Source: a virus
IMG/VR virus record: IMGVR_UViG_3300042556_001584
Location: 1 to 24,469 of that record
Reading direction: 5' to 3' (one strand)
DNA: 24,469 nt
The translations under genes were made by a program, and so were the position numbers. The stretch's first letter is position 1; each line of letters starts with the position of its first letter. Positions 1,381 to 9,940 of the stretch are shown here, one piece after another. Below the pieces are notes generated by a model. The model had not been told where the DNA came from and did no database searches. It was given only the letters and a program-made list of their open reading frames with translations.

Positions 1381-2744
1381 CTCCCCCCCCTGGCCGTCAT
1401 GACGTGCCGGGCCCAGCCGTGGGGATTCTTCATGCCTCGGCGGCGGCCCACTTCCACCAGATCCTCAAAGGACCGGGCAGAACCCTGCTCTTTCTTGCGC
1501 TCCCGCCGTTGCATCAGCACTTCCTGCAGTTGGCCCTCGACAGTTTGGATGGTTGCGGTCCTGACTACGAACAGGTGTCCGCACTCTTCACAAACTGCCA
1601 CACCCCCAGCCATTGCCGCGTAGCACACCGGGCACTCGCGCACCGGCACCGCTGGCCCACCCTCCCGCGCACGCTTGCGCACACCGTCCAGCGTCCACTC
1701 CCGCTCCTCCAGGTGGTGCCCCAGCCTGGCCACGTTGCCCACATGGTCGAGCACCACCGCGGCGGCCTTGCCCTCCGATGGCCTCAGGCAGCGGCCGATC
1801 ATCTGCAAGTGCAAGCCCTCAGACTGGGTGGGCCTCAGCATCACGCAGCCCCCGACGCTCGGCACATCCACGCCCTCGCCGATCAGCTCACAGCTCGTCA
1901 ACACCTGCAGCGCACCGGTGCCCAAATCCCGGAGCAGCTCCCCACGGTTCGGCGTCGTGCCATCAATGCTCGCTGCCCTCACGCCCGCAGCCTTGAACGC
2001 CTCAGCAGTGGCCTCCGCATGCCGGATGCTGCAGCAGAACGCCACCGCCGTTCCGCCCTTCAGGTGCTGCTGATAATGGCCCACGGCAGAGCCCATCACG
2101 CTCGTGACCATCAGCCGCTCGCCGGCCTCTCCCTGGTCGAAATCACCCATCCGCTTGCGCAATCCCTTTGGGTCGAACCCAATCGGTGGCGCAAACACCC
2201 GCGCCCGGGCCAAATAGCCCAGCTCCGTCAACTCCGCAGCACTTGGGCCCAGCACCATCTCCTGAAACACTTCACCCAGGCCCCTCCCATCACCCCTGAT
2301 CGGGGTGGCCGTCACACCCAGCAGCCGGGCTGGGCTGAAGTGCTCCAGCACCCTCGCCCAGGTGCCGGCAACCGCATGGTGGGCCTCATCCACGATCACC
2401 AGCCGGAACGCATTAGGCGGGAAATCATCCAGCCTCCTGACCAGCGTTTGCACGCTTGCCACCTGCACCAGCTGGCGGATGTCCATTGGCCGGTTCGCCT
2501 GGATCAATCCATGCTCGACACCCAACCGGCTCAGGCTTGCGCTGGCCTGCTGCAGCAGCTCTTGCCTGTGCACCAGGATCAGCACCCTGCCGCCACGGGC
2601 CTCCACTCGGCGGGTGATCTCGGAAAAGATGTAACTCTTGCCGCCACCTGTGGCGAGCACATAGACCACCTTCGACACGCGGCGGAACGTCTGGCTTAGG
2701 CGCTCGATGTCTCGGCCCTGGTAGAGGCGGGTGGTGAAGGTCAC
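1377..2744 (-). CDS. RadD-like DEAD/DEAH-box (SF2) helicase
   Basis: A 455-residue superfamily 2 helicase. Visible motifs, numbered from the GTG start: ATGGGKSY (Walker A, 31-38), DEAH (119-122), TATP (145-148), a C-terminal RecA domain with TSCELIGEGVDVP (283-295) and the arginine motif QMIGRCLRP (314-322). A zinc-ribbon-like pair CPVC...CEEC follows (371-388), then a basic C-terminal tail. The layout resembles E. coli RadD, which repairs DNA and binds SSB. The frame is open further upstream to an ATG, but the GTG at 2744 is preferred because it overlaps the previous stop by four bases (GTGA) and starts exactly at the conserved N-terminal segment TRLYQGRD. It is also possible that this is a phage helicase of the same superfamily with a different job, such as branch migration. 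Confidence 0.85.
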   Translation of the reverse strand: MTFTTRLYQGRDIERLSQTFRRVSKVVYVLATGGGKSYIFSEITRRVEARGGRVLILVHRQELLQQASASLSRLGVEHGLIQANRPMDIRQLVQVASVQTLVRRLDDFPPNAFRLVIVDEAHHAVAGTWARVLEHFSPARLLGVTATPIRGDGRGLGEVFQEMVLGPSAAELTELGYLARARVFAPPIGFDPKGLRKRMGDFDQGEAGERLMVTSVMGSAVGHYQQHLKGGTAVAFCCSIRHAEATAEAFKAAGVRAASIDGTTPNRGELLRDLGTGALQVLTSCELIGEGVDVPSVGGCVMLRPTQSEGLHLQMIGRCLRPSEGKAAAVVLDHVGNVARLGHHLEEREWTLDGVRKRAREGGPAVPVRECPVCYAAMAGGVAVCEECGHLFVVRTATIQTVEGQLQEVLMQRRERKKEQGSARSFEDLVEVGRRRGMKNPHGWARHVMTARGGR

Positions 2745-3028
2745 TCCCGGGCCCTCATGGCGGCGTGGGCGTAGCCGGCCACGTCTTCCCAATGCTCGGG
2801 ATCGTGTGGGTCAGAACCGCTCAGGATACGGGCGATCTTGTGGGCGATCATGTCGAGGGCCTCCTGTTCGCCAGGCGTCAGCAGGTACCAGTTGGTGCCG
2901 TGATGAATGGGGATCTTCAGGCTTTGGGACAGCGAACCCACGGCTTCCATTCCGCCGTGCTGCTCGTCTCGGTTCGGGATGTTGGGGGTCATGGTTGGGG
3001 TGGGGGTATCAACAGGCGGTGGTTTCAT
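2741..3028 (-). CDS. DUF6378-like phage protein
   Basis: A 95-residue protein. The first 30 residues are Pro/Thr-rich and probably disordered. The rest carries a helix with MIAHKIARILSGSD and the ending DPEHWEDVAGYAHAA. The pattern of a basic helix followed by an Asp/His loop, Trp and D-x-AGYA is what I associate with DUF6378, a small phage family of unknown function often found near replication genes. The ATG overlaps the stop of the SF1 helicase (ATGA), and the stop overlaps the GTG start of the RadD-like gene (GTGA), so it is embedded in the operon. Internal Met codons at residues 13 and 27 could also start it. The family assignment is from memory of the motif. Confidence 0.7.
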   Translation of the reverse strand: MKPPPVDTPTPTMTPNIPNRDEQHGGMEAVGSLSQSLKIPIHHGTNWYLLTPGEQEALDMIAHKIARILSGSDPHDPEHWEDVAGYAHAAMRARE

Positions 3029-4593
3029 CGATCTGCCACCACGTGCAGGCTTTCGGCGGCCCTGGTGATGCCGACGTAGGCCAGTTGGTTCTGCTGGGCG
3101 GTAGGCGCAGATCCCCAGCCGTCGATGCTCCAGTGCAGGAAAACATGCCGAAACGTGCTGCCTTGAGACTTGTGAACCGTCAGTGCGCTAGCGGGCTGCA
3201 GCTTCCCGACGCAATCCTTCCGCAAAAAATATAGATTCCACCAACCTTTCCGCTCCTCGCCGCTGGTGGCCTTTGCCTGGTCAGCAATTTTCTTCAGCGA
3301 TTCCTTCCAACGCTCTTCCTGCTCCATGGCGATGACGCGAAATGTCTTTGACTTGTAAAAATCACCCGAGACCGTCAGCTCCCAGGTGTCCCATGGCTCA
3401 TCGGTCGGCAAGTCGCCGGCATCAGTAAATTGGTGCGGGACGCGTTTGGCCTCTTCGATCAGCACATCAACCGTGCTGTTCAGAAGCGGACCCGTTGCTA
3501 GCGGGTCTGGGATGGCGTCAACTGTCACGCAGGTCATGCCTTCCACGAACTGGGGCGCATTCAAGCCGTAGCGGCGCTGGTGGATCCGCAGGTTCATCTC
3601 ATCCACCGCCTTATTGGTAAAGGCCAACGCCCGGCAGAAGTCGGGATCACTCATCGCATCCCGTGATGCCGCCATCTCCAGCAGGGCAGCACCCCACTGC
3701 TCGCGGCTGCGATATCCCACAACGCGGGAACCTCCGCCTTGGGCAGTTGCGAACCGGGCCCTGCCTACCGGCATCTGCCTGGTAGCGGTAGCCAAGTTCA
3801 GAATCGCGCCATCGTGCCGAAGCACCTCGGTCAACCGGTAAAGCGAACTGCCCTCAGTGAATGCCCTGCAGGCCTGATCCTCGCCCACAGGCAGCAGCTG
3901 GCGGTCGTCGCCGACAAACACCACGGGGCGGCCCTGAAGTTCGCGCAGTAGCAGGTCGTAAAGATCACTGTTGAGCATTGATGTCTCATCAACGATTACA
4001 ACATCAATGCGCCGAATCTCATTCATCACCTTTTCGTACTTGTCCCATTCACTCTCCTTGTTAAGCATGTTCTTTCCGCCTGGATCCGGCCTGAACATCT
4101 CCTTGCCAGTTTCACGATCGCGGACCTGCTTCAGGCCCAGCAGACGGGCCACAGTGACAGCCTCGAATCCGTGGGCGCCGCAGTTGTCTAAGGCGCGTTC
4201 AACCTGTGAGCGGGCCTTGTGTGTTGGAGTGGCCACGACCACTCTTTTGCCAAGATCAGCCAGCCGCGAGACCAGCGCTGCAGTGGTAACGGTCTTTCCC
4301 GTGCCTGCGTACCCGCAAAGCACAGGAGTCGCGCCAGGCTTTTTTATGTCTTCGAGGATCCCTTCAATCGCAGACAGCTGGTCGGTTGTGAGCTGAATAC
4401 CAGCGGGCTTGGCGGCTGTTGACGGATCAATATGCTCAGCTTCTAGGCATTGAGCTGTAAGAAGGTTGTAAAGGGCAGCGTCGTCGAAAACTTCTTCTAG
4501 CCAGTTCCTTAGCGCAAGGATCTGGGCTGCTATCGCATTGCGTGCTGTTAGTCCATCGCATGCTTTTTCCATTACCTGCCAAAGAGGTTCCAT
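3025..4593 (-). CDS. SF1 helicase, RecD2/Dda-like
   Basis: A 522-residue superfamily 1B helicase expected to unwind DNA 5' to 3' during phage replication or recombination. Visible motifs: QLTTDQLSAIEGI (Q-motif-like, 67-79), GYAGTGKT (Walker A, 94-101), VVIVDETSML (Walker B, 198-207), FVGDDRQLLPVG (motif III, 226-237), ALTVHKSQGSTF (motif V, 470-481) and YVGITRA (motif VI, 506-512). The first 65 residues do not match the helicase core and are of unknown function. The size is near that of phage T4 Dda (439 residues) and much shorter than RecD2. It is the first gene of the leftward operon, and the region in front of it holds the divergent control sites. Met 8 is a possible alternative start. 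Confidence 0.88.
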   Translation of the reverse strand: MEPLWQVMEKACDGLTARNAIAAQILALRNWLEEVFDDAALYNLLTAQCLEAEHIDPSTAAKPAGIQLTTDQLSAIEGILEDIKKPGATPVLCGYAGTGKTVTTAALVSRLADLGKRVVVATPTHKARSQVERALDNCGAHGFEAVTVARLLGLKQVRDRETGKEMFRPDPGGKNMLNKESEWDKYEKVMNEIRRIDVVIVDETSMLNSDLYDLLLRELQGRPVVFVGDDRQLLPVGEDQACRAFTEGSSLYRLTEVLRHDGAILNLATATRQMPVGRARFATAQGGGSRVVGYRSREQWGAALLEMAASRDAMSDPDFCRALAFTNKAVDEMNLRIHQRRYGLNAPQFVEGMTCVTVDAIPDPLATGPLLNSTVDVLIEEAKRVPHQFTDAGDLPTDEPWDTWELTVSGDFYKSKTFRVIAMEQEERWKESLKKIADQAKATSGEERKGWWNLYFLRKDCVGKLQPASALTVHKSQGSTFRHVFLHWSIDGWGSAPTAQQNQLAYVGITRAAESLHVVADR

Positions 4594-4627
4594 TCCGGCT
4601 TCAGGGCTGCGTGTGCGACGAATGCCC

Positions 4628-4655
4628 CGCTATCATAGCGTTTGTGGTCTAGACC
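4628..4655. promoter_or_regulatory. Divergent control region with two adjacent palindromes
   Basis: Between the divergent SF1 helicase and ribbon-helix-helix genes lie two perfect palindromes: CGCTATCATAGCG (4628-4640, six-base arms around a central C) and GGTCTAGACC (4646-4655). The first contains TATCAT on the + strand and TATGAT on the - strand (4637-4632), both close to a sigma-70 -10 box and pointing in opposite directions. The leftward one lies 39 bases ahead of the helicase ATG. No good -35 box is visible for either. This is a plausible pair of overlapping promoters with an operator; the regulator is unknown, and the neighbouring ribbon-helix-helix protein is a natural candidate. Confidence 0.5.
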
Positions 4656-4698
4656 GCATACAGTGCCAACACCCACCACCTCAGGCCCAAGGCGTCAC

Positions 4699-4824
4699 GT
4701 GTCTATCAGGCTTCCTCCCGACCTGCTGAGGTTTGTTGATCTGCAGGCTGCTTCGGCCTTTCAGACCCGCAGCCAGTACCTCACAGCCCTTGTCGCAAAG
4801 GCCTATCAGCAGGCCCAGCGCTGA
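4699..4824 (+). CDS. Small ribbon-helix-helix protein
   Basis: A short protein with the ribbon-helix-helix pattern: a basic strand RHVSIRLPPDL, then two helices (RFVDLQAASAF, QTRSQYLTALVAKAYQQ). Ribbon-helix-helix proteins bind DNA as dimers and often repress their own promoter or act as antitoxins. No ATG start exists. Possible starts are TTG at 4642, GTG at 4663 and GTG at 4699; I list the last because AAGG lies a few bases before it, but it begins inside the first basic segment (RR lies just upstream), so a start at 4642 or 4663 (60 or 53 residues) is nearly as likely. Its stop is two bases before the primase-helicase ATG, so the two are co-transcribed. Confidence 0.65.
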   Translation: MSIRLPPDLLRFVDLQAASAFQTRSQYLTALVAKAYQQAQR

Positions 4825-4826
4825 AA

Positions 4827-7394
4827 ATGAGCCAACCTCTCATGAGAGCAGCGGAAGGCCGCTGGCCCGATATTCTCGCGTCCCTTGCTGGCCTCTCTTC
4901 CGATCAGCTCACCGATCGTCATCAGCCCTGCCCCGCCTGTGGTGGCACCGACCGCTTCCGCTGGGACGATGACTCAGGAGATGGCTCATGGTTCTGCAAT
5001 CAATGCGGCGGCAAAAACGCCCAAGGGGGTGGCGGCAATGGCATGGACCTCCTCATGCGCGTCCGCGGCTGGTCCTTCACCGATGCCTGCCGGGAGCTTG
5101 AACGCCACCTCGGCCTTCCCTCCACCGGCAAACCCCGCAAGCCCCATCGCATCCCCCAGCGGCCCCCGGCCGATGCTCCCGCACCGCCCCTCAACCGTGG
5201 CGCCGTCGCCCAGTGGTGTTACCGCGACGCATCAGGTGCGCAGCTCTTCTGGATCCAACGCATCAGCCTTCGCAATGGCGGCAAGGCCTTCCTTCATCGC
5301 GTCTGGCTCGATGGTGGCTGGCATCGCCCATCCCGGGAAGACCCCTTTACCTGCGACTGGCCCGCACCCAGGCCACTCCTGAACCTCGATCAGATCACCG
5401 CACGGCCCACCGATCCGATCCTTATCACCGAAGGCGAAAAGGCCTCTGATGCCGCCCAGCGCTTCTTCCCTGCTGCCGTGGCCTCCACCTGGCCCAATGG
5501 CGCCAAAGCCCTGGACAAGATCGATCTTAAGCCCCTCTCCGGCCGAACCTGCATTCTCTGGCCCGACAACGATCCCGAAGGCAACGCCGCCATGGATCGC
5601 CTTGGCCAGAAGCTCCTCACCCTTGGCTGCAAAGTTCAGCTCGTCAGCAATCCCCCCGACGCTCCAGAAAAGTGGGACCTGGCTGATGCCAAATGGACAC
5701 CATCTGAAGCTCAGGATTACATCCGCACCCATCGCACACCCTTCACCGCACCCACACCCGAACCGCCACAGCCACCCCCAACACCCGACGCCAGCCCCTT
5801 TCACTGCCTTGGCTTTGATGGTGATGCCTTCTTCTATCAACCCGCTGCCACAGGGCAGGTCATCCGTATCTCTGCCTCAGGCCACAGTGGCATCAACCTG
5901 TGCCGCCTTGCACCCCTCACCCACTGGGAGGCCCTCTACCCGGGCCGCAACGGCATCAACTGGACCGCTGCCGCATCAGACCTCTTCGCCCAACAAGCGG
6001 ACATAGGTGTTTACGATCCGGACCGCATCCGGGGTCGTGGCGCCTGGTGGGACGAGGGCCGCGCCATCCTTCACCTCGGTGATCACCTCCTGGTGGATGG
6101 TCTGCACCATGACCTCACCTCTCGCCTCCATGCCTCCCGCTACCTCTATCAGCGGCTCGCCGCCATTGATGCCCCACCTGCAGCACCACTCAGCGATCCC
6201 GAGGCCTTCGAGATCCTTGAGCTAGCCAATCGCTTCTACTGGGATGTGCCCGCATCAGGCCTCCTCCTCGCAGGCTGGGTCACCCTTGCGCCGATCTGTG
6301 GCGCCCTCGACTGGCGACCCCATGCCTGGCTCACCGCTGCCGCAGGCTCCGGCAAGTCTGAGCTGCTCGACAAGTACGTGGGGCCCCTCCTCGGCTCCAT
6401 CTCCCTCTGGCCCCTTGGCTCCTCCACTGAGGCCTTCCTAAGGCAGCAGCTCCGCTGTGATGCCCTCCCAGTGGTGTTCGACGAGGCCGAATCCAACGAA
6501 CAGAACGACAAGGCACGCATCCAGGCCGTGCTCGCCCTCGCGCGCGTCGCCTCCTCCTCAGGCCGTGGTGTGGTCGGTCGTGGCTCTGCTGATGGCCAGG
6601 CCCAGCGCTTCACCATTCGCTCCATGTTCCTCCTCTCCTCCATCTCCACCGCCCTAAAGCAAGGCGCAGACCGCACCCGCTTCGCTCAGCTCTCCCTCCG
6701 CAATCCATCCGAGCTGCCAGCAGAGCAGCGCTCTCAGCATTGGGCCAACCTCAAGGCCGATCTCGAGCGCACCATCTCCAACACCACAGGCCAACGCCTG
6801 CAGGCCCGCACCATCAGCCTCATCCCGGTGATCCGGCAATCCACCAGGGTGTTTCGTGAAGCCGCAGGGGCCTACTTCCAAAACCAACGCCTGGGGGATC
6901 AATACGGCACGCTCCTGGCCGGTGCCTATGCCCTTCAATCCAGCCAGGTGCCAACCCTTCAGCAAGCCACCGACCTTATCAGCCAACAGAACTGGGAGCC
7001 TTATCAACAGGCCACCGAGCTCACCGACGAGCAGGCCTGCCTCCAAACGCTCCTTCAGCATCAGCTCCGCATTGAATCCCGCGATGGTGCCCTCACCCGC
7101 ACCGTGGCCGAGCTGGTGGCCATCGCAGCCCATCACAGCCACTCCATGCAGATCGATACGACCAGCGCCGAGGAGCTCCTTGGCCGCCATGGCTTCCGCG
7201 TTGCCGATGACCACCTCCTGATCTCAAACACCGCCACCGCCATCGGCAAGATCCTTTCCGTTACGCCCTGGGCCTCCTGCTGGCCTTTCACGCTTGTGCG
7301 AGTCACAGGCGCAACACGGCCCGGCGTGGCCCGCTTCAAAGGCATCGGCTCCTCCCGTTGCGTTGGAATTCCCCTTCAGGCCGTTACGCTGTAA
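4827..7394 (+). CDS. Primase-helicase, phage P4 alpha-like
   Basis: An 855-residue replication protein combining primase and helicase parts. In order: a zinc ribbon (CPAC at 35-38, CNQC at 57-60) with the following GNGMDLLMRVRGWSF segment typical of P4-type primases; a TOPRIM domain (ITEGEKASDAA around 200-210, LWPDNDPEGNAAMDRLG around 244-260); a spacer; an ATPase with AAAGSGKSELL (Walker A, around 503-513) and LPVVFDEAES (Walker B, around 547-556); and a C-terminal part of about 200 residues without a recognised motif, where P4 alpha carries its origin-binding domain. It probably opens the origin, unwinds and primes. Its stop codon lies inside the first repeats of the candidate origin. The coding strand is strikingly C-rich, unlike the terminase genes. 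Met 6 is another possible start. Confidence 0.85.
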   Translation: MSQPLMRAAEGRWPDILASLAGLSSDQLTDRHQPCPACGGTDRFRWDDDSGDGSWFCNQCGGKNAQGGGGNGMDLLMRVRGWSFTDACRELERHLGLPSTGKPRKPHRIPQRPPADAPAPPLNRGAVAQWCYRDASGAQLFWIQRISLRNGGKAFLHRVWLDGGWHRPSREDPFTCDWPAPRPLLNLDQITARPTDPILITEGEKASDAAQRFFPAAVASTWPNGAKALDKIDLKPLSGRTCILWPDNDPEGNAAMDRLGQKLLTLGCKVQLVSNPPDAPEKWDLADAKWTPSEAQDYIRTHRTPFTAPTPEPPQPPPTPDASPFHCLGFDGDAFFYQPAATGQVIRISASGHSGINLCRLAPLTHWEALYPGRNGINWTAAASDLFAQQADIGVYDPDRIRGRGAWWDEGRAILHLGDHLLVDGLHHDLTSRLHASRYLYQRLAAIDAPPAAPLSDPEAFEILELANRFYWDVPASGLLLAGWVTLAPICGALDWRPHAWLTAAAGSGKSELLDKYVGPLLGSISLWPLGSSTEAFLRQQLRCDALPVVFDEAESNEQNDKARIQAVLALARVASSSGRGVVGRGSADGQAQRFTIRSMFLLSSISTALKQGADRTRFAQLSLRNPSELPAEQRSQHWANLKADLERTISNTTGQRLQARTISLIPVIRQSTRVFREAAGAYFQNQRLGDQYGTLLAGAYALQSSQVPTLQQATDLISQQNWEPYQQATELTDEQACLQTLLQHQLRIESRDGALTRTVAELVAIAAHHSHSMQIDTTSAEELLGRHGFRVADDHLLISNTATAIGKILSVTPWASCWPFTLVRVTGATRPGVARFKGIGSSRCVGIPLQAVTL

Positions 7395-7482
7395 CGCTTG
7401 AGAGAGGGGGCGTAACGCCCAAAACCCTTGCAACGACTAGGTTGTAACGGTGTAACGCCTTTTTTCAAAAACATAGACCCCC

Positions 7483-7515
7483 TACGTGCGCGCACGCGCA
7501 TGTACGCGCACACGT
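7483..7515. other. 33-bp alternating pyrimidine-purine tract (Z-DNA-prone)
   Basis: Every base from 7483 to 7515 alternates pyrimidine and purine without a break, mostly as CG and CA/TG steps, the pattern that most easily flips to left-handed Z-DNA under negative supercoiling. A second, shorter alternating run follows at 7520-7533 after one iteron. The tract sits between iteron groups of the candidate origin, so it may absorb or report supercoiling there. Confidence 0.7.
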
Positions 7516-7537
7516 CGTTACGCGCATGCACATCCCC

Positions 7538-7562
7538 TTATATATATATCTTTTTCTATTTA
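7538..7562. other. AT-rich tract, candidate DNA unwinding element
   Basis: A run of TATATATATAT followed by T-rich sequence, about 25 bases nearly free of G and C in an otherwise GC-rich genome. It lies between two iteron groups (nearest at 7517 and 7566). In iteron origins such tracts are where the helix first opens. It could alternatively form part of a promoter for the downstream phosphoesterase gene, although no -35 box is apparent. Confidence 0.5.
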
Positions 7563-7681
7563 GACGTAACAACGTAACAAGGCAGTCACCGCAATGGTTT
7601 TGGGCGTTACGCTGCCGTTACGCACCGTTACGCCGCGTAACGCTCCCTACGTTGAGGCTGTCTTGCGCTTCCTCAACCCTG

Positions 7682-8545
7682 GTGGCTGCTCCATCCCTGG
7701 ACCTGATCAGGCGCAGCCCAGAGCTCCTGGAGATCCGCATCCCCTACACGACCGAGCGAACCCACGAGTTCCTCCTGGCCTCAGACATCCACTTGGACAA
7801 TCCACATTGCGACCGGGAGCTCTTCCGCAAGCATCTCAAGCAGGTTCAAGGCCGAGGGGGGCACGCCCTCCTTTTCGGGGACGTCATGTGCCTCATGCAG
7901 GGCCGCCGCGACCGCAGGGGCAGCAAGTCCAGCATCAGGCCTGAGCATCTCGGCTCCAACTACTTCGACCTGGTGTTCTCAGAGACGGCCGAGTGGCTGG
8001 CGCCGTTCTCGAGCACCATCCTGATGATGTCCGACGGCAACCACGAAACGGCCGTCATCAACAATCAGGAGATCGATCCGCTTGGCAACGTGGTGCGCCT
8101 CATGAGAGACCGCTACAAGAGCCCTGTGGAGCACATGCGCTACCAAGGGTGGATCTGGTTCACCTTCCACCAGACTGGCGCTTCCAGGAGCTCACGCACG
8201 CGGCGCTGCGCGTTGTTCTTTCACCATGGCGCCTGGGGTGGTGTTGTCTCGAAGGGCGTCCTAGGAGGACTTCGTTACACGAGCGTGGCGGAGGCGGACG
8301 TGTACATCAACGGCCACAACCACGAGCGGACGATCGTGAGCCATCCCTGCTACCGAGTGAACGCCTCCGGCAAGCAGCGCATTGCCCAGCGCTGGCACGT
8401 TCAGACGGGCACCTACAAGGAAGAATTTGAGGAGGGCTCCGGCTGGGCTGTTGAACGGATCGTCATGCCAAAATCCTTGGGTGGTGTCTGGCTGAAACTC
8501 AAGCCCTCCGACCAGGGCGTAGAAATCTCACTGGAGCCTTGCTGA
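7682..8545 (+). CDS. Calcineurin-like metallophosphoesterase
   Basis: A phosphoesterase of the two-metal calcineurin-like superfamily, which cleaves phosphomonoesters or phosphodiesters. All five signature blocks are present, numbered from GTG 7682: SDIHLD (34-39, D-x-H), FGDVM (65-69), SDGNHET (117-123), FHHGAW (around 180-185) and NGHNHER (around 209-215). The substrate cannot be told; relatives include DNA-repair nucleases and nucleotide phosphatases. The frame is open back to ATG 7526, giving 339 residues, but that extension reads through the repeat cluster and encodes an Arg/Cys-rich stretch unlike the family, so I prefer a start near 7682 (GTG) or 7652 (TTG). Neither has a clear ribosome binding site. 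The gene ends four bases before the next ATG. Confidence 0.82.
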   Translation: MAAPSLDLIRRSPELLEIRIPYTTERTHEFLLASDIHLDNPHCDRELFRKHLKQVQGRGGHALLFGDVMCLMQGRRDRRGSKSSIRPEHLGSNYFDLVFSETAEWLAPFSSTILMMSDGNHETAVINNQEIDPLGNVVRLMRDRYKSPVEHMRYQGWIWFTFHQTGASRSSRTRRCALFFHHGAWGGVVSKGVLGGLRYTSVAEADVYINGHNHERTIVSHPCYRVNASGKQRIAQRWHVQTGTYKEEFEEGSGWAVERIVMPKSLGGVWLKLKPSDQGVEISLEPC

Positions 8546-8549
8546 AACC

Positions 8550-9152
8550 ATGGACCTCTTCATCGATACAAAGGACCTGGACCGGCTTCATTTTTTTGTT
8601 GTCGGCATAGGGAAGCAACTTCCTTACGCCCAGTCCCGTGCATTGAACTCCCTGGCCTACGAAACACGCGACCAGACACGTTCGGGCATGCGCAGCAACT
8701 TCACAATCCGCAGGCCCTGGGTCGTAAACCAACTGCAGGTCCGGAAGAAAGCAAGCAAGTCGGACCTTGAGGCCGTTGTCGGCACGTCAGACAAAGGGAA
8801 GTTCCTGGCCAAGCATGAAGACGGCGGGACACGGCCAGCACTTGGCCGCTTCATTGCGATTCCAACGCGAGCGATTAGACGCACGAAGACTGATCAGATC
8901 AGAAAATCAGATCGACCCAGCAGCCTTGGTGATCGAGCCACCGTGATCAACTACAAAGGCGACCAGTACCTCGCGTTGAAGAAGGGCCGCTGGAATAGAA
9001 GCGGAGGCGGACGGCTTCTGTATTTGTTGAAGCCGAGGGTTGATATTGACGAGCGGCTGGAGCTTGAGAAAACAGGCCGACGTGTTGTTGCAACGCAGGC
9101 CACTCGAAAGTTATCCGAGGCGATTGAACAAGCGCTGAGGACTGCAAAGTAA
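8550..9152 (+). CDS. Minor tail protein Z-like
   Basis: A basic 200-residue protein. The pattern RALNSLAYETRDQTRSGMRSNFTIRRPWVVNQLQVRKKAS (around residues 30-70) resembles lambda gpZ-type minor tail proteins, which have an ALNR-like helix followed by basic strands and a linker, and lambda gpZ is similar in length (192 residues). Later parts include YLALKKGRWNRSG and a C-terminal helix TRKLSEAIEQAL, also as in that family. It lies four bases after the phosphoesterase, upstream of the terminase genes, rather than between FII and U as in lambda. An HK97 gp10-type head-tail protein is the main alternative. The assignment rests on pattern memory only. Confidence 0.55.
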   Translation: MDLFIDTKDLDRLHFFVVGIGKQLPYAQSRALNSLAYETRDQTRSGMRSNFTIRRPWVVNQLQVRKKASKSDLEAVVGTSDKGKFLAKHEDGGTRPALGRFIAIPTRAIRRTKTDQIRKSDRPSSLGDRATVINYKGDQYLALKKGRWNRSGGGRLLYLLKPRVDIDERLELEKTGRRVVATQATRKLSEAIEQALRTAK

Positions 9153-9400
9153 AAATCGAACCCTGCCCGGCTTTTTTGTGGGACCAGGGGTCGTCAATTC
9201 GCTGAGACCGACTGCGCTGCAAGGAATCTCGCGGGTCCCTCCTGAGGGGGGAGGCCTGCGGGTGACGCACAACCCCGGTTTTTTCGTAGCGGGAGGGTTT
9301 GGAACCTGCTTAACCGGGCAGGGCGGGTAGACGCAGTTCCCCCTACCCATGGGAAAGCCTTAAGTTGGTGGCTGGATCGTTAAGTTAAGCCCAGAACCCA
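9153..9400. other. Intergenic region with repeats; candidate cos/packaging site
   Basis: This 248-base gap lies directly before the terminase small-subunit gene, where lambda-type phages carry cos. It contains a 10-bp inverted repeat (9161-9170 CCCTGCCCGG and 9314-9323), an inner inverted pair GGGACC/GGTCCC (9180-9185, 9234-9239), a hairpin CCTGC/GCAGG (9305-9309, 9318-9322), and three TTAAG units (9360, 9380, 9385) just ahead of the terminase start. A frame runs from about 9154 to a stop at 9330 (GTG possible at 9178, 50 residues) and holds two PGFFV segments 36 codons apart; I do not trust it as a gene. No cut site can be identified from the sequence alone. Confidence 0.35.
9161..9323. repeat. 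10-bp inverted repeat bounding a 163-bp segment
   Basis: CCCTGCCCGG at 9161-9170 is exactly complementary to CCGGGCAGGG at 9314-9323. Inside it, an imperfect direct repeat built around CCCGG-(C/T)-TTTTTT occurs at 9166 and 9274, spaced 108 bases (a multiple of three). The segment could fold into a long structure, be the remains of a small mobile element, or be part of a packaging site. Confidence 0.6.
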
Positions 9401-9940
9401 GTGCTGGTCACGTTTGCGGCGTTTGCGAAGTTGAAGGGGGTGTCCGGGGCGGCGGTGACGCAGGCCTGCCGCGAGCGGATCAGGGAGGCGATTGTGGAGC
9501 GGAACGGCAAGCGGATGCTGGACCGTGACAAGGCGATGGATCTGTGGGATCGGAACACGATGCGCAACGGGTCACAGCGCTTGAGTGCTGCCGCTCGTGA
9601 TCGAGACCGCGAATCACTGCCCAGTGGTGAGCAGCTGCGAAGCCACATCATGGGATTGCCAGAGGATGCGATCCCTGGGCTGGATGTGAGCCGGGAGAGA
9701 AGGGAGCACTACAACGCAGAGATTGCCAGGCTGGATGCGTTGCGACAGCGCAAGGAGCTGGTGCTGGCGGAGGAGGTAAAGGGCGAGGCGGCGCGGTTGG
9801 CGCGGCAGGTGCGGGATTTGTTGCTGATCATTCCGAGCCGGAATGCGGCGCGGGTGGCGGCGATGGGTGATCCAGAGGAGGTGCGGTCGCTGCTGCAGGG
9901 TGAGATCGAGGGAGCGTTGCGGGGGTTGGCGGGTGGCTGA
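9401..9940 (+). CDS. Terminase small subunit, Nu1-like
   Basis: The DNA-recognition subunit of the packaging motor. The 179 residues are close to lambda Nu1 (181). The N-terminus has the winged-helix start of this family: TFAAFAKLKGVSGAAVTQACRER (around 4-26), then a wing-like stretch and DRDKAMDLWDRN. A Lys/Glu-rich helical middle (RREHYNAEIARLDALRQRKELV, 101-122) fits the dimerisation region, and the C-terminus, which contacts the large subunit, includes RNAARVAAMGDPEEVRSLL. It starts at GTG 9401; a stop in frame at 9386 excludes a longer form. There is no clear ribosome binding site. It overlaps the large-subunit start by eight bases. Confidence 0.85.
   Translation: MLVTFAAFAKLKGVSGAAVTQACRERIREAIVERNGKRMLDRDKAMDLWDRNTMRNGSQRLSAAARDRDRESLPSGEQLRSHIMGLPEDAIPGLDVSRERREHYNAEIARLDALRQRKELVLAEEVKGEAARLARQVRDLLLIIPSRNAARVAAMGDPEEVRSLLQGEIEGALRGLAGG

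Follow-up and report, generated by a model that had tools for sequence, protein, structure and literature searches.

The Rep protein of the SaPI elements reads, through its C-terminal domain, iterons that lie directly downstream of its own gene (PMC7581432), and the isolated C-terminal domain of Cch2 binds its putative origin, in which the iterons are 5 nt long (PMC7581432). The alpha protein of P4 unites primase, helicase and iteron binding, the last through its C-terminal part, in a single polypeptide; it is also discussed in PMC4234260. Here we describe a cluster of short iterons directly behind a phage primase-helicase gene, which is very likely where the phage starts to replicate and which the primase-helicase itself very likely recognises with its C-terminal domain, both binding and origin activity being inferred.

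The window, by which we mean the whole stretch of DNA analysed, is a complete IMG/VR viral record of 24,469 b and likely represents only part of a phage genome. Its terminase has 62-64% identity with those of Synechococcus phages S-CBS1/S-CBS3 and its primase 58% identity with that of Synechococcus phage S-H1, and we therefore take it to be a picocyanobacterial phage. The features of the locus are as follows.

4642 to 4824, plus strand: ribbon-helix-helix-like protein of 60 aa, directly upstream of the primase, identified by sequence pattern (RHVSIRLPPDLL...)
4827 to 7394, plus strand: primase-helicase gene, 855 aa (Pfam PF08273, E 1.7e-13; phrog_35358 DNA primase, E 3e-133)
7023 to 7391, plus strand: C-terminal domain, codons 733-855, the proposed iteron reader (AlphaFold pLDDT 96.4; natural swaps)
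7326 to 7334, plus strand: codons V834-A835-R836 of the motif G-x1-x2-x3-F, the proposed base readers (covariation; strand assignment)
7383 to 7416: iterons 1-3, outer left group, at 7383 (minus), 7391 (plus) and 7412 (plus), from the sequence count
7417 to 7443, plus strand: 27-bp element H1 (GCCCAAAACCCTTGCAACGACTAGGTT), between iterons 3 and 4, matching the reverse complement of H2
7444 to 7456: iterons 4-5, inner left tandem pair (8-bp), at 7444 (plus) and 7452 (plus); the pair is conserved in relatives
7484 to 7514, no strand: alternating purine-pyrimidine tract at the dyad centre (about 7511), from the sequence and the inverted repeat
7517 to 7521, minus strand: iteron 6, from the sequence count
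7537 to 7563, no strand: AT-rich tract immediately preceding the inner right pair on its 5' side, a candidate opening region, from the sequence
7566 to 7578, plus strand: iterons 7-8, inner right tandem pair (CGTAACAACGTAACA), 8-bp, at 7566 (plus) and 7574 (plus)
7579 to 7605, minus strand: 27-bp element H2, which repeats H1 in inverted orientation between iterons 8 and 9
7606 to 7641: iterons 9-12, outer right group, at 7606 (minus), 7617 (minus), 7627 (minus) and 7637 (plus), from the sequence count
7677 to 8545, plus strand: next gene, conserved coding portion, metallophosphoesterase/exonuclease-like (phrog_7339 DNA repair exonuclease)

Twelve copies of GTAAC/GTTAC fall within 259 bp (7383 to 7641) directly behind the primase-helicase gene, in an array that spans from 12 nt before the primase stop to 250 nt after it. 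The window as a whole contains 25 copies, compared with a mean of 8.9 and a maximum of 16 in shuffled sequence, and the 13 copies outside the cluster are scattered over the remaining 24.2 kb. The best 265-nt stretch holds 12 copies, compared with a mean of 1.5 and a maximum of 3 in 1,000 windows simulated with a first-order Markov model, and GTAAC/GTTAC is the most clustered pentamer, with none other in the window equally clustered. GC follows the pentamer in nine of the twelve copies (GTAACGC or GTTACGC), and three 8-bp tandem pairs are present (7383/7391, 7444/7452 and 7566/7574), of which the inner right pair fixes the orientation of the motif. Aligned with its reverse complement, the segment from 7410 to 7612 matches at 66% (E 1e-8), and it constitutes an imperfect inverted repeat with its dyad near 7511. 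We note that a 13th copy of GTTACGC is located at 7260-7264 on the minus strand, within the primase gene and 120 nt ahead of the cluster.

An initial annotation, made from the letters of the window alone, had described twelve copies in about 260 bases, most of them extended with GC and disposed in direct, inverted and 8-base tandem arrangements, together with an alternating tract and an AT-rich tract, and all of these claims held. Its claim that the repeats cover the primase stop also held, the TAA at 7392-7394 being contained in iteron 2 (7391-7395), and neither of the two outcomes that it had named in advance as refutations, an equal density of the pentamer elsewhere and a cluster not conserved in relatives sharing the primase gene, was observed. 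The claim that the repeats enter the next gene held only in part, as it requires the use of upstream ATGs, and homology with a near-identical relative resumes at 7677. The inverted repeat and the H1/H2 pair were absent from that annotation.

Across genes on the same strand (4827-9940), third-position GC skew flips from -0.48 for the primase to +0.10 for its downstream neighbour and +0.53 for terS, with values of +0.46 to +0.53 across the terminase and portal genes, and the cumulative skew minimum lies at 8717 in the window and 0.4-5 kb downstream in most relatives. GC skew was considered as a sharp origin marker and rejected, as it turns near the cluster in the window, which is suggestive, but is not sharp in the relatives, where this evidence is weak. 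Neither an intrinsic terminator nor a known RNA was found in the cluster region. The metallophosphoesterase gene occurs beside either of two different initiator genes, or in the absence of both, and was rejected as the owner of the cluster, which is found behind the primase and is missing from metallophosphoesterase loci that have other neighbours.

The primase-helicase is composed of an N-terminal zinc ribbon (PF08273) and primase, an AAA+ helicase core, and a C-terminal putative DNA-binding domain, and its AlphaFold model has a mean pLDDT of 89.6. Foldseek searches with the full model recovered NrS-1 (5e-8), Cch (8e-8) and SaPI5 PriRep (about 2e-5), as well as D5 helicases, although these are matches at the level of fold only, with TM-scores of 0.2-0.4; NrS-1 and SCCmec Cch provide the closest helicase folds, and the SaPI5/D5 group ranks lower. 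When the C-terminal domain was compared with PDB folds there was no match at E<=0.001, Cch appearing only at E 3.9, and a profile search of solved chains by sequence gave no match to any of them. Near the C-terminus, the motif G-x1-x2-x3-F is represented in the window by G833-V834-A835-R836-F837, of which the Phe is conserved. In the AlphaFold models the terminal beta-hairpin includes strand 830-837, which contains residues 834 and 836; these two are expected to share a face of that strand because they are two positions apart.

Relatives of the primase were taken from viral contigs and from bacterial genomes of Synechococcus, Cyanobium and Vulcanococcus (probable prophages), yielding 142 distinct loci that all include the C-terminus and extend at least 250 nt beyond the gene. 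Conservation of the cluster behind homologous primase genes was looked for and found, an iteron cluster with the same position and spacing being present in most of the 142 loci, and the AT-rich tract and partial dyad symmetry are conserved with it. A tandem pair with 7-9 nt spacing is recognisable in 50 clusters and in most of them starts 150-199 nt downstream of the primase stop. AT content in the 30 nt preceding the pair is 66%, compared with 42% regionally, with a higher value in 46 of the 50. Pairs resembling H1/H2 and sharing a TTGC..GCA core are visible by eye in many relatives, whatever the iteron class, and the pairwise match between the two elements is weak in a good number of them. 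No cluster was found behind the gene in proteobacterial phages encoding a 35-40% identical protein.

The letters of the iterons are uniform at nearly all sites inside one locus and differ by lineage, with classes GTAACA, GTTACA, GTCACA, GTGAGA, GTGAGG, GTAAGA, GTTAGG, GTTAGA, GGGACA and GGAACA, such that the general form is G-K-N-A-S-R. Four divergent prophage primases (L178, L179, L194 and L173), which have N-S/P-V-R-F or H-P-V-R-F at the corresponding position and GGAACG/GGGACG repeats, represent further classes. The only isolate found with a close primase relative (58%) is Synechococcus phage S-H1 (MK105819; L322), whose primase gene is annotated as hypothetical and carries GVIWF; GTTAGG and GTTCGG iterons are mixed behind it at 6568-6830, a DNA polymerase III beta subunit gene is nearby, and the origin is unannotated in the record. 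We also observed one hybrid origin, in L004 (IMGVR_UViG_3300016265_001324, around 7690-8000), where a Tyr-type protein accompanies GTGAGA iterons on the left and GTTACA iterons on the right. Starting immediately after the primase stop, the rightward DNA of L004 has 91% identity with that of L037, which is Arg-type. L004 could have recombined recently, could be only half-functional, or could be a joint made in assembly.

A relationship between the protein and its iterons was first noticed by eye, in that the residue before the conserved Phe tracks the iteron motif. The rule for residue 836 was written on the first 80 loci, before further loci were collected, and base 5 was called from the DNA alone and only among motifs of GKNASR form; column statistics used 134 called loci in 60 clusters at 85% body identity, with seven loci lacking a base call and L004 excluded. 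Residue 836 predicts base 5 without error, with Arg accompanying C in 89 loci, and Trp, Tyr and His accompanying G in 17, 13 and 15 loci, respectively. Its normalised mutual information with base 5 is 1.000, compared with 0.579 for the runner-up column in the whole protein, and the rule was correct in 25/25 clusters containing no locus from which it was formed. For base 3 the top column is residue 834 (0.577 normalised information), where V occurs mostly with A, A mostly with T, and S in Tyr/Trp proteins with G; 834 accounts for base 3 only partly, with S and P being ambiguous. Lys at 834 accompanies G at base 2. Every Trp protein goes with G at base 6 and almost every Tyr/His protein with A, although the ranking of columns for bases 2 and 6 is confounded by the small number of lineages.

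By parsimony, base 5 switches 12 times on the tree of the protein body, with an equal number of switches between R and other residues at 836, and 6 times on a tree of the C-terminal domain built without the five motif residues, again with as many R/other switches. From the 12 switches on the one tree and 6 on the other, it is likely that about half of the body-tree switches are cassette transfers and that about six occurred within the domain's own history.

Cassette swaps involving the C-terminal domain and the cluster are illustrated by pairs of related genomes. In L270 and L295 the primase bodies are 91% identical and the DNA to the right of the cluster about 90% identical, whereas identity falls to 38-78% within about 300 nt on either side of the primase stop. 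The iterons are GTAACA in one and GTAAGA/GTCAGA in the other. The ribbon-helix-helix-like proteins upstream in this pair are of two different types, as if they too had been exchanged. In L312 and L316 the bodies are 96% identical but the last 57 aligned residues only 63%, with GGAACA and GTAAC iterons, respectively; the two sequences part about 350 nt ahead of the stop, and differences extend into the right-hand DNA as well. The swaps begin ~300-350 nt before the primase stop, at about the start of the C-terminal domain. A more extensive replacement is seen in L083, which matches the window at 95% identity to the right of 7677 and at 86% to the left of 2743 (flanks 85-95% overall), but in which L083:2360-5000 takes the place of window 2744-7676 and contains another helicase gene with repeats of its own behind it, AGGTTGGAAA/TTTCCAACCT; homology returns about 35 nt beyond the last window iteron. 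We interpret L083 as an exchange of initiator-origin cassettes between unrelated initiators, the origin role being inferred. From these three comparisons we conclude that either the C-terminal domain plus cluster, or a whole initiator plus cluster, moves as a unit.

The cluster, its conservation, the covariation, the swaps and the predicted fold are thus shown, and they permit a mechanism to be proposed in which ring loading, melting, binding, origin activity and atomic contacts are all inferred, there being no binding or replication data. The primase-helicase would bind the iterons through its C-terminal domain, with residues 834 and 836 reading bases 3 and 5 of G-K-N-A-S-R, and Arg836 most likely contacting the G opposite C5. 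Binding at the two head-to-head iteron groups would load helicase rings at the dyad. The AT-rich tract lying between the groups would open, after which the same protein would unwind the DNA and prime it. The C-terminal domain and origin would form one specificity cassette, and the iteron class would switch often because the two evolve and recombine as a unit. The suggestion in the initial annotation that the C-terminal part of the protein is a candidate reader is strongly backed by the covariation and the natural domain/cluster swaps, with binding remaining inferred, and its identification of a probable replication origin is supported, with activity likewise inferred. Weighing against the mechanism are the mixed iterons of L004, the distance of the skew minimum from the cluster, the missing cluster in the proteobacterial phages and the incomplete account that residue 834 gives of base 3.

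Other readings of the cluster can be entertained. The iterons could be the operator of a DNA-binding regulator, such as an autoregulation or partition site for the upstream ribbon-helix-helix protein, which is itself likely to be a regulator, as inferred from its sequence pattern. Such proteins bind short repeats of this length, and a small ribbon-helix-helix-like gene lies upstream of many of these primases, with another downstream of the S-H1 cluster. However, L030 and L067 encode an identical ribbon-helix-helix protein yet have GTTAGG and GTGAGG iterons, respectively, whereas L029 and L036 encode different ones and share GTAAGA, and on the strength of these two pairs we reject the ribbon-helix-helix protein as the iteron reader. 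Many loci moreover lack such a protein by the pattern used, and no promoter-like (sigma-70) site was found in 7300-7750, such that an operator role is very unlikely. The proximity of the terminase genes, which start 1.8 kb right of the cluster in the window, raises instead the prospect of a packaging (cos/pac) site, or a landmark for the terminase or another right-hand product. We regard this as similarly improbable, because the cluster follows the primase in loci whose right-hand genes differ, and the iterons covary with the primase residue rather than with the right flank, which is about 90% identical in L270/L295.

A subtler objection accepts the cluster as an origin but attributes the covariation to physical linkage only, with some other protein reading the iterons. 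The gene end and origin do travel together, which ties all columns close to the stop to the motif. Nonetheless, neighbouring columns that are equally linked reach no more than 0.58, compared with 1.00 for residue 836; residue 834, on the same strand face, is the best column for base 3; and the mapping holds across at least 6 changes on the C-terminal-domain tree. There is thus very little to recommend linkage as the sole explanation, and we favor an origin read by the C-terminal domain of the primase-helicase.

On this preferred reading, an origin and its putative reader, with binding and origin activity inferred, are defined for a large group of picocyanobacterial phages and prophages with scant annotation, and the class of origin is predictable from protein sequence alone. 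The covariation of residues and iteron letters across about 60 groups would amount to a readable protein-DNA recognition code, if the inferred binding is correct, and at least six specificity switches, with one residue predicting one base, provide a natural data set with which co-change of initiator and origin without a non-functional intermediate becomes directly testable. A bolder interpretation is that the C-terminal domain is a type of DNA-binding domain absent from solved structures, with a compact, swappable code (834 to base 3, 836 to base 5), and that phages repeatedly re-code their origins by means of cassettes; we offer this tentatively, as the case for it falls a little short of the case against. 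Re-coding could possibly provide an escape from incompatibility or from origin-directed interference (compare PLE/Odn), the latter having been proposed as a driver of module exchange in PLE (PMC8263062).

Comparison with described systems places the locus near several of them without assigning it to any one. As with SaPI Rep and SCCmec Cch and Cch2, a helicase predicted to load itself is followed by short iterons directly downstream of its own gene, and the AAA+ initiator helicase fold is shared with the SaPI/SCC group, Cch (5dgk) and SaPI5 PriRep1 (7ola, 7pds) being among the Foldseek matches. In both, iteron specificity appears to be set by the C-terminal domain, although here this rests on covariation and cassette swaps only, with binding inferred. 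Unlike that group, the window system belongs to a phage rather than an island and has 12 iterons in a dyad of two groups, and its C-terminal domain has no significant fold or sequence match to those of Cch and SaPI Rep. We have not filed the primase-helicase as a SaPI/SCC member because the C-terminal domain lacks a fold match and the profile a solved chain. The fused primase and helicase and the N-terminal zinc ribbon (PF08273) are shared with P4 alpha, the parallel drawn in the initial annotation, but no homology of the C-terminal domains was seen, without direct comparison, and kinship as such is not shown, the closest folds being NrS-1 and Cch. For P4 crr, a second cis element apart from the origin, no counterpart was found: GTAAC forms only one dense cluster in the 24.5-kb window, which is probably a fragment.

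The order of small repressor, primase-helicase and origin directly downstream is like that of pRN1 orf56/orf904 (PMC4234260). However, pRN1 has an archaeo-eukaryotic primase and a 100-nt stem-loop origin without iterons (PMC4234260), and the window departs from this iteron-free pRN1-type origin in that iterons are present, as judged from sequence rather than from computed secondary structure. Phage S-H1 (MK105819) resembles the window system in having a primase relative with iterons behind the gene, with a different iteron class. The RepA protein of V. cholerae PLE is an unrelated RepA_N initiator with three 30-bp iterons, and no residue-to-base rule is reported in the relevant passages (PMC8263062), but its DNA-binding domain and origin, like those described here, covary and swap as modules (PMC8263062). 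Geminivirus Rep is likewise an unrelated protein, acting in rolling-circle replication of plant ssDNA viruses, yet its iteron-related domain offers a methodological parallel, as residue-base pairs were inferred comparatively there also, for iterons of 5-6 nt (Arguello-Astorga and Ruiz-Medrano 2001, cited in PMC12548392).
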